Positions 31,585 to 33,594 of a stretch of DNA of 64,000 bases are shown here, piece after piece (the stretch's first letter is position 1; every line of letters begins with the position of its first letter). The translations under genes were made by a program, and so were the position numbers. The notes under the pieces are model-generated. The model had not been told where the DNA came from. It was given only the letters and a program-made list of their open reading frames with translations, and did no database searches. The stretch is from an uncultured Turicimonas sp. (GTDB lineage: Bacteria > Pseudomonadota > Gammaproteobacteria > Burkholderiales > Burkholderiaceae_F). The stretch covers positions 1-64,000 of the forward strand of contig CANTYJ010000001.1 in the NCBI GenBank assembly GCA_947854175.1, given 5' to 3'.

Positions 31585-32868
31585 TTAAGCAACTTGAGGG
31601 ATATCGGCCAGACACGTAGTATAGGCAGGGCTTAAACGGTAACGAGCCATTCTCCACTGCTCCTCCGAGAGTTTACTGCCGGCATAACAAAGGCAATACT
31701 TACCGAAACGCCGGTTAATTGCATCGACTGCATCAGATAACTTTTGTCTGTCTTTTCTCTGTTCTTCTTCAAACAAATCCATCGGTACAGACTTCATTGG
31801 CACCACTTCGGAAGCATAAACTCCGGCTCGTTTAAACAAATAACCGGGGCGAAAGTACGTATGAAGTAAATCACAAGCCGCCTCTATGATGCTTTTCGAA
31901 TCATTGGTCGCAAAGTTTAGTCCTTTTGCGGGGTAGATATGGTATTGGAGATCATGCTCTCTAAAAGGATTGGTGTTAAGAATAATGCCAATGACATGAG
32001 CTGCTGTTTTTTCTTTTCTTAACGTTCTGGCAGTTTCTTCTGCATGAAAAATGATTGCGCCTTCCAGTTCTTCTTCCGTCGAAATCAACTGATTAAAGCT
32101 TCGGCTTCTTACGACCTGTTTCCTTTGTGCCCTGACCTCTTCCAAAGGTAAACAGCTTTCTCCTCTCAGTTCCAGTACTGTTTGTGCCAAAACAAGGCTA
32201 AACTGCTTTCTTATCCAATCGGGCGGAGTTACTGTCAGATCCCAGGCGGTATAAATACCAAACGAATTAAGTCTTGTCTTTAAACGTCTTCCGACTCCCC
32301 AAATTTCATCGACCGGCTGGCACATTAGAGCTTTTTGTCTTCTGTCTGCTGATAGTTCAAACCAGTTGCACACACCGTTTAAGGAAGGAAACTTTTTTGC
32401 AAGATGGTTGCAATACTTGGCCAATGTTTTTGTCGGAGCAATTCCCACACAAGTCGGAATGCCAACCCATTGGAGTACACGCTCTTTAATATTAGTCCCT
32501 AATGTTGTTAACTGCTCCGGAGTGGTGCTCAAGCCTGACATATCTGCAAATGCTTCGTCAATACTATATTGCTCTACTGCCGGAACTAAGCTGGCAATCG
32601 CAGAGATCATCCGCCCGGACAGGTCTCCGTAAAGCTCATAATTACTGGAAAAAGCCACTACTCCGTTTTTCTTGCAGAAGTCTTCAATTTCGAAAAAGGG
32701 TTGGCACATTTTGATCCCAAGTTTTTTAGCCTCAGCACTTCGCGCAACAACACAACCGTCGTTGTTACTGAGTACAACCACAGGAGTATGTGCAAGGTCA
32801 GGGCGAAAAACCTTTTCACAAGAGGCAAAAAAAGAATTTCCGTCAATTAAGGCAAAAACCGGATCCAT
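31585..32868 (-). CDS. umuC: DNA polymerase V catalytic subunit
   Basis: This 427-residue Y-family polymerase copies past damaged DNA during the SOS response. The catalytic acidic residues are in FALIDGNSFFASCE and YSIDEAFADM, and the little-finger and C-terminal regions match UmuC (FRPGYLFKRAGV, INRRFGKYCLCYAGS). It starts 9 bases after the umuD stop, as in umuDC operons. Control seems to rest on an unusual inverted repeat before umuD. Confidence 0.95.
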   Translation of the reverse strand: MDPVFALIDGNSFFASCEKVFRPDLAHTPVVVLSNNDGCVVARSAEAKKLGIKMCQPFFEIEDFCKKNGVVAFSSNYELYGDLSGRMISAIASLVPAVEQYSIDEAFADMSGLSTTPEQLTTLGTNIKERVLQWVGIPTCVGIAPTKTLAKYCNHLAKKFPSLNGVCNWFELSADRRQKALMCQPVDEIWGVGRRLKTRLNSFGIYTAWDLTVTPPDWIRKQFSLVLAQTVLELRGESCLPLEEVRAQRKQVVRSRSFNQLISTEEELEGAIIFHAEETARTLRKEKTAAHVIGIILNTNPFREHDLQYHIYPAKGLNFATNDSKSIIEAACDLLHTYFRPGYLFKRAGVYASEVVPMKSVPMDLFEEEQRKDRQKLSDAVDAINRRFGKYCLCYAGSKLSEEQWRMARYRLSPAYTTCLADIPQVA

Positions 32869-32877
32869 ACAGTGAAC

Positions 32878-33516
32878 TCATGCTTTTTTGATAATGTAAG
32901 TCACCACACCGACAAAATTCCAGACATCACCTTCTTTTGGAACAATGTCTAAATAAGCGGGATTAGAGCTTTCAGGATGAAGAATAATGTTTCCGTCCCT
33001 TTTGATAAGACGTTTAACCGTGAATTCTTCGTTGATGTTGACAATTACAATATCTCCGTTGCGAGCCTGTTTAGAACGGTCGACCACCAACAAATCTCCT
33101 TGGTCAAGCCCGGCCAAATCCATGGAGTCTCCTTTTACTCTTACAAAGAAGGTCGCAGCCGGAATATCCACCATCATTTCATTCAGATCAATGCGCGCTC
33201 CAACATAACTTTCTGCCGGGGACGGAAACCCTGCCTGGACAAAACTTTCCGCTAAAGGCAGCTCCAGCTTTTCAGGATTAAGACTGGGAAACTGACAGTC
33301 AGGAGGAAGATTCTTTTTAAAGTAAACAGCCTTTTCTATTTGTTCCCGGACCCACTTGGATCCTCCGAGTTTTTTAAAGTCTTCTTTGAGGGCATCTGAA
33401 ATAATCAATGTCGTCACAAACTTCCCCGGCAATGGCTTCCGACCTGCTCCCGGTCTTGCCCCACCCTTTTCAGAAGAAGGCTCAGTTGTTTTTGATGTTT
33501 GTTCTTTCTTATTCAT
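32878..33516 (-). CDS. umuD: UmuD with an added ribbon-helix-helix-like N-terminal domain
   Basis: I start at ATG 33516, after AGAGG; an ATG 30 bases upstream is possible. The last 140 residues are UmuD: the A-G cleavage site in SFVQAGFPSPAESYVG, catalytic Ser in KGDSMDLAG and Lys in FTVKRLIK. The product is 212 residues against about 139 for E. coli UmuD. The extra N-terminus, GGARPGAGRKPLPGKF, VTTLIISDALKEDFKKLGG and SKWVREQIEKA, resembles small RHH regulators, including the one at 3549-3710. This suggests a self-cleaving repressor like UmuDAb of Acinetobacter, with a different DNA-binding fold. Confidence 0.9.
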   Translation of the reverse strand: MNKKEQTSKTTEPSSEKGGARPGAGRKPLPGKFVTTLIISDALKEDFKKLGGSKWVREQIEKAVYFKKNLPPDCQFPSLNPEKLELPLAESFVQAGFPSPAESYVGARIDLNEMMVDIPAATFFVRVKGDSMDLAGLDQGDLLVVDRSKQARNGDIVIVNINEEFTVKRLIKRDGNIILHPESSNPAYLDIVPKEGDVWNFVGVVTYIIKKA

Positions 33517-33523
33517 AAAAAAA

Positions 33524-33565
33524 CCTCTTTTATTGAAAAATAACATACTTTTTCAATAAAAGAGG
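33524..33565 (-). promoter_or_regulatory. 17-bp perfect inverted repeat covering the umuD ribosome site
   Basis: CCTCTTTTATTGAAAAA (33524-33540) is exactly inverted at 33549-33565 with an 8-base spacer. On the umuD transcript the second arm ends in AGAGG, the ribosome site, followed by seven T and the ATG. The element could be a DNA operator, a hairpin hiding the ribosome site, or a terminator. It does not look like a LexA box of the CTGT-N8-ACAG type. Confidence 0.85.
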
Positions 33566-33594
33566 ATAAAAAGAATATCTTTTTTCAAAACAAA

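Follow-up and report, generated by a model that had tools for sequence, protein, structure and literature searches.

The window, a stretch of 64,000 nucleotides from an uncultured Turicimonas sp., carries on its minus strand a pol V operon in which a complete umuC directly follows an elongated umuD. Reading frame, strand and coordinates of umuD, and the position of the inverted repeat before it, were given exactly in the first-pass annotation. The features of the locus are the following.

31585-32868, minus strand: umuC (pol V catalytic subunit), complete, 9 nt downstream of umuD
32878-33516, minus strand: umuD homologue with a putative N-terminal DNA-binding extension, 212 aa, stop codon within the coordinates
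32881-33231, minus strand: UmuD S24 peptidase domain, residues 96-212; S131 codon at 33124-33126, K168 codon at 33013-33015
33229-33234, minus strand: predicted self-cleavage site A95-G96 (VQA/GFPSPA)
33310-33420, minus strand: RHH-like strand-helix-helix, residues 33-69, from AlphaFold2 (pLDDT block means 84-97)
33433-33465, minus strand: basic GGARPGAGRKP arm, residues 18-28, predicted to be disordered
33524-33565, no strand assigned: full inverted repeat, 42 bp, with 17-bp perfect arms
33533-33556, no strand assigned: inner box and operator candidate TTGAAAAAGTATGTTATTTTTCAA (TTGA-N16-TCAA), a putative site and the sole match in the genome
33593-33620, minus strand: intrinsic terminator of the upstream gene, ending at 33593

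The full UmuD self-cleavage module that had been claimed for the protein is intact. Peptidase S24 (PF00717) matches residues 91-205 (5.8e-28), the NCBIfam model of the pol V autoproteolytic subunit, NF007621, gives 135 bits (cut-off 110), and A95-G96, S131 and K168 are spaced as in UmuD. Furthermore, the core of the AlphaFold model can be superposed on structures of UmuD'. The rest of the S24 proteins found in the genome are one phage-type repressor and one paralogue that is catalytically dead, so that the window protein is the sole intact UmuD of its genome and presumably serves pol V too. This double role is uncertain, since in E. coli UmuDAb of Acinetobacter did not act as UmuD for pol V (PMC4807011).

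About 80 N-terminal residues of the protein are extra and net basic (+7). They include the arm, whose GRK/GRP core may be likened to an AT-hook. Two AlphaFold models agree with high confidence on helices at 41-49 and 53-69, preceded by an extended segment at 33-39, and the turn LGGSxWxR (LGGSxWxRxxI) is compatible with a ribbon-helix-helix (RHH) topology; the models are of monomers, in which the paired strands of a ribbon cannot show. Pfam and PDB sequence-profile searches with the N-terminal domain (NTD) returned nothing significant and no RHH Pfam family over its cut-off, and Foldseek gave no match in the PDB, so that the case for RHH is one of topology. The NTDs of relatives show weak Pfam matches (E 0.0044) to the antitoxin BrnA, an RHH protein, and related N-terminal motifs match unrelated phage families weakly as well. 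Of the proposed basic domain resembling small RHH repressors, the basic charge and the predicted topology thus stand; the fold itself is unproven, although plausible and more likely than not.

Several other proteins carry the same motif. The protein at G000:C57:8031-8549 (L041/L003; P0002) joins the same RHH-like N-terminus to a degenerate S24 domain whose catalytic residues are replaced and whose cleavage site is gone; it is possibly a non-cleavable repressor, with relatives at L163, L166, L167 and L168 and with fdhD adjoining in several genomes. A 184-aa protein at L040:1238-1792, minus strand (G000:C69), has the strand-helix-helix motif (LGGSSWIREQI) on its C-terminal side and lacks a peptidase domain. 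Two genus g16 genomes hold more paralogues (L164, L165), in which the serine is kept, the catalytic lysine has become arginine, and the cleavage site is missing.

Since the upstream gene is terminated at 33593, umuDC needs its own promoter within the approximately 75 bp before its ATG, most of which is taken up by the inverted repeat. No consensus promoter was scored in this stretch; a possible -10, TATGTT, lies inside the box, the core of which reads AGTATGTTA and lacks GTnAC. The umuD-proximal arm of the repeat holds the ribosome-binding site. In relatives the outer repeat arms are not kept and only the inner TTGA...TCAA box is, which upholds a palindromic operator candidate at this place. 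With up to three mismatches allowed, the box occurs once in the genome, before umuDC, and the recA promoter of the same genome has none; the suggested separate solution to SOS control is therefore too broad. A stricter pattern, TTGAAA-N9-13-TTTCAA, was considered for a wider regulon and rejected, as it gave five sites, fewer than its reversed control, and the other four lie within genes or lack a plausible link.

No protein over the LexA family cut-off was found in this genome, which is rated 99.96% complete and has recA. The window protein itself reaches 70 bits against LexA (TIGR00498, cut-off 110.95), and over residues 93-210 only. Had close relatives lost the N-terminal region, this would, by the first-pass annotation, have spoken against a DNA-binding UmuD; instead, a UmuD with such an N-terminus is kept in 34 of 67 family genomes (genera g1, g2, g4, g9, g15, g16 and g17), at 32-54% full-length identity to the window protein across the seven genera. 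Named relatives in the alignment scan include Parasutterella excrementihominis, Dakarella and Sutterella MAGs, by which the window would most probably belong to Sutterellaceae. LexA over the cut-off is present in 22 of the 67, belonging to ten other genera, and none of these 22 has an NTD-bearing UmuD, an exclusion that may reflect a single evolutionary event. Five genus g15 genomes combine an NTD-bearing UmuD with a divergent LexA-like protein below the cut-off; those at G044:C1:205327-205920 and G047:C5:1466-2059 are full-length and divergent, at 99-102 bits. Outside the family, LexA was found in 6 of 21 NTD-bearing genomes.

Many NTD-bearing umuD genes have a TTGA-N14-16-TCAA palindrome 23-48 nt ahead of their start. 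At a palindromicity of at least 0.55, TTGA-N13-16-TCAA precedes 27 of 55 NTD-bearing umuD genes and 0 of 44 short ones; these are plain gene counts, for which a phylogeny-aware independent-pairs test was underpowered. At 0.7 or above, the box precedes 5 of 25 umuD genes in Sutterellaceae and 17 of 30 in the others, the shuffle means being 0.02 and 0.05. The N-terminal extension is conserved in seven genera, and relatives show the box far more often than shuffled sequences do; neither is a chance feature. The groups with a box before an arm-bearing umuD are Sutterellaceae, Thioglobus/SUP05, Methylococcales and Cycloclasticus, and GTnAC is found in most of the gammaproteobacterial N15 boxes. A search of ten genomes for the consensus, allowing three mismatches at most, found all their umuD boxes again and only one site besides; the reversed control pattern gave no match. 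A second Parasutterella site lies before an unrelated exported protein.

Only 7 of 25 Sutterellaceae umuD promoters have the TTGA...TCAA box; in the others different palindromes, or none, were recognised. LexA boxes also drift. A different long palindrome precedes umuD at L030 and L033, in two g4 genomes (ATGCAAAATAAT...ATTATTTTGCAT in L030), and is perhaps an operator of changed specificity. A GCATAC motif suspected in other Sutterella promoters was discarded: at L012 at least, it marked the beginning of a divergent umuC. In most Sutterellaceae loci umuC adjoins umuD, downstream or divergently; where it is divergent (L009, L011, L012, L030, L031, L033, L034, L035), one promoter region could control both genes.

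A protein-only query of genome contigs gave no match, whereas an alignment query of GTDB genomes found NTD-bearing UmuDs in Thioglobus/SUP05, Cycloclasticus, Methylococcales, Nitrotoga, Lysobacterales and Acinetobacter. UmuDAb, of 203 aa with E24, K40, S119 and K156 in place, was recovered in a search of 59 Acinetobacter-group genomes. Its box is TTGAAAATGTAACTTTTTCAA, with N13 spacing, and a divergent 83-aa ORF occupies the expected place of ddrR. Its N-terminus, MPKKKEFEHGGARENAGRKAQFNEPTKVIRVPESQVNFIKNWLL, has the same arm and, after it, a strand and a helix, and published mutagenic primers give the same sequence (AGRKAKYQ-PTK, RVPESQVAFI-WLLDN; PMC4807011). In hhalign comparisons of the NTD only, Sutterellaceae and Acinetobacter align at 97% probability with a score of 51.7, against at most 14.5 for column-shuffled controls, which cover the Sutterellaceae NTD comparisons; the gammaproteobacterial set and Acinetobacter align at 99%. 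Without the arm the probability between Sutterellaceae and Acinetobacter falls to 14%, so that the homology of the window protein to UmuDAb lies mainly in the short basic arm motif. The first-pass annotation had held the DNA-binding region to differ from that of UmuDAb. As a complete difference this is not supported, as both have the same GGxRx(G/N)AGRK arm and strand and TTGA...TCAA operators, while the remainder diverges. UmuDAb has been described with a LexA-like helix-turn-helix (HTH) (PMC4807011, PMC11332147); judged from the arm and strand, this view deserves re-examination.

In Acinetobacter, repression of umuDC by UmuDAb works through its NTD and a TTGA...TCAA operator, and self-cleavage inactivates the repressor (PMC4807011, PMC11332147). 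By analogy, repression by the N-terminus, the role of the operator and relief by cleavage would hold for the window protein, which is probably a UmuDAb-type bifunctional UmuD and an autorepressor of its pol V operon, not a general SOS regulator. In the undamaged cell, an intact dimer would sit on TTGA-N16-TCAA over the umuDC promoter via the basic arm and the RHH-like domain, and so repress it. Upon DNA damage, RecA filaments would trigger self-cleavage at A95-G96; the cut would remove the DNA-binding part, lifting repression and freeing UmuD' for pol V. The regulon looks minimal, as in Acinetobacter.

A larger role, in which the window protein replaces LexA as master SOS regulator with recA and repair genes under its control, would fit the fact that neither this genome nor the NTD-bearing part of the family has LexA over the cut-off. 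It is made improbable by the single box of this genome, away from recA, by the finding of just one box in almost every other genome tested, and by the umuDAb-independent induction of recA and ssb in Acinetobacter (PMC3978071). The inverted repeat could also be read as an RNA element, either a terminator or a hairpin that masks the ribosome-binding site, with the extension tuning cleavage, dimerisation or turnover. Its 17-bp perfect stem is followed by seven T and was scored terminator-like, and AAAGAGG lies within the umuD-proximal arm; but the stem has only four G-C pairs, its outer arms are not conserved, the inner box in relatives leaves the ribosome-binding site uncovered, and the box accompanies the NTD and is missing before short umuD genes. 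Such an element is very improbable.

That the NTD binds and represses, yet arose by an independent RHH-UmuD fusion whose arm and operator resemble those of UmuDAb by convergence, is unlikely but deserves more weight. Neither UmuDAb nor the gammaproteobacterial proteins have the second helix and its LGGSxWLR turn, the comparison with Acinetobacter is not significant once the arm is removed, and the same domain is found on other proteins of the genome. A tree of the core (116 columns) does not unite all NTD-bearing UmuDs and does not settle whether the extension had one origin or several. Against convergence, arm and strand follow the start directly and in register in Sutterellaceae and Acinetobacter alike, the layout of the box and its place relative to umuD are common to both, and the Sutterellaceae and gammaproteobacterial NTDs still align at 85% without the arm motif, with a few residual arm columns left in that test.

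UmuDAb is probably no invention of Acinetobacter: in a widespread and so far unrecognised class of proteobacterial pol V operons, UmuD itself would act at a private TTGA-N13-16-TCAA operator as a repressor that is cleaved on damage, and in Sutterellaceae without LexA a single protein would be repressor and polymerase subunit, binding by an arm and an RHH domain and not by a LexA-like HTH. The literature takes UmuDAb, its operator and the supposed LexA-like HTH as Acinetobacter features, and self-repressing UmuDs outside that genus appear to be common and unreported in the literature searched. On this reading, gut (Parasutterella, Sutterella) and marine (SUP05/Thioglobus) bacteria would be among the many in which UmuD directly controls its own mutagenic polymerase, pol V, and this would explain how mutagenesis is kept off in bacteria without LexA. 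Arm and box together would provide a sequence signature to find such systems, and the correction to the DNA-binding model of UmuDAb would be testable by structures.

Among known systems, E. coli UmuD shares with the window protein the S24 core and the pol V operon arrangement; its cleavage site is preceded by only some 24 residues, a DNA-binding part is absent, and it is repressed by LexA. LexA is an S24 repressor that self-cleavage inactivates, the principle proposed here, but its DNA-binding part is a winged HTH and the window protein matches it in the peptidase domain only. HdiR, the non-canonical LexA of Bacteroidetes and Francisella FddR are likewise non-LexA S24 repressors that have taken over damage-inducible genes (PMC8565304, PMC13148647), but they are kin of phage repressors and not an arm and RHH-like domain on a UmuD core. 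In contrast to UmuDAb of Acinetobacter baylyi and A. baumannii, the window protein has a second helix and the LGGSxWxR turn, its operator is spaced by N16 instead of N13 and lacks GTnAC at its core, nothing like ddrR was seen beside its umuD, and its umuC is complete and directly downstream. Nevertheless, UmuDAb is the system with which it shares the UmuD-type S24 core with the A-G cleavage site and the S/K dyad, a genus without LexA, a strand preceded by the GGxRx(G/N)AGRK arm, and the TTGA...TCAA palindrome before umuD.
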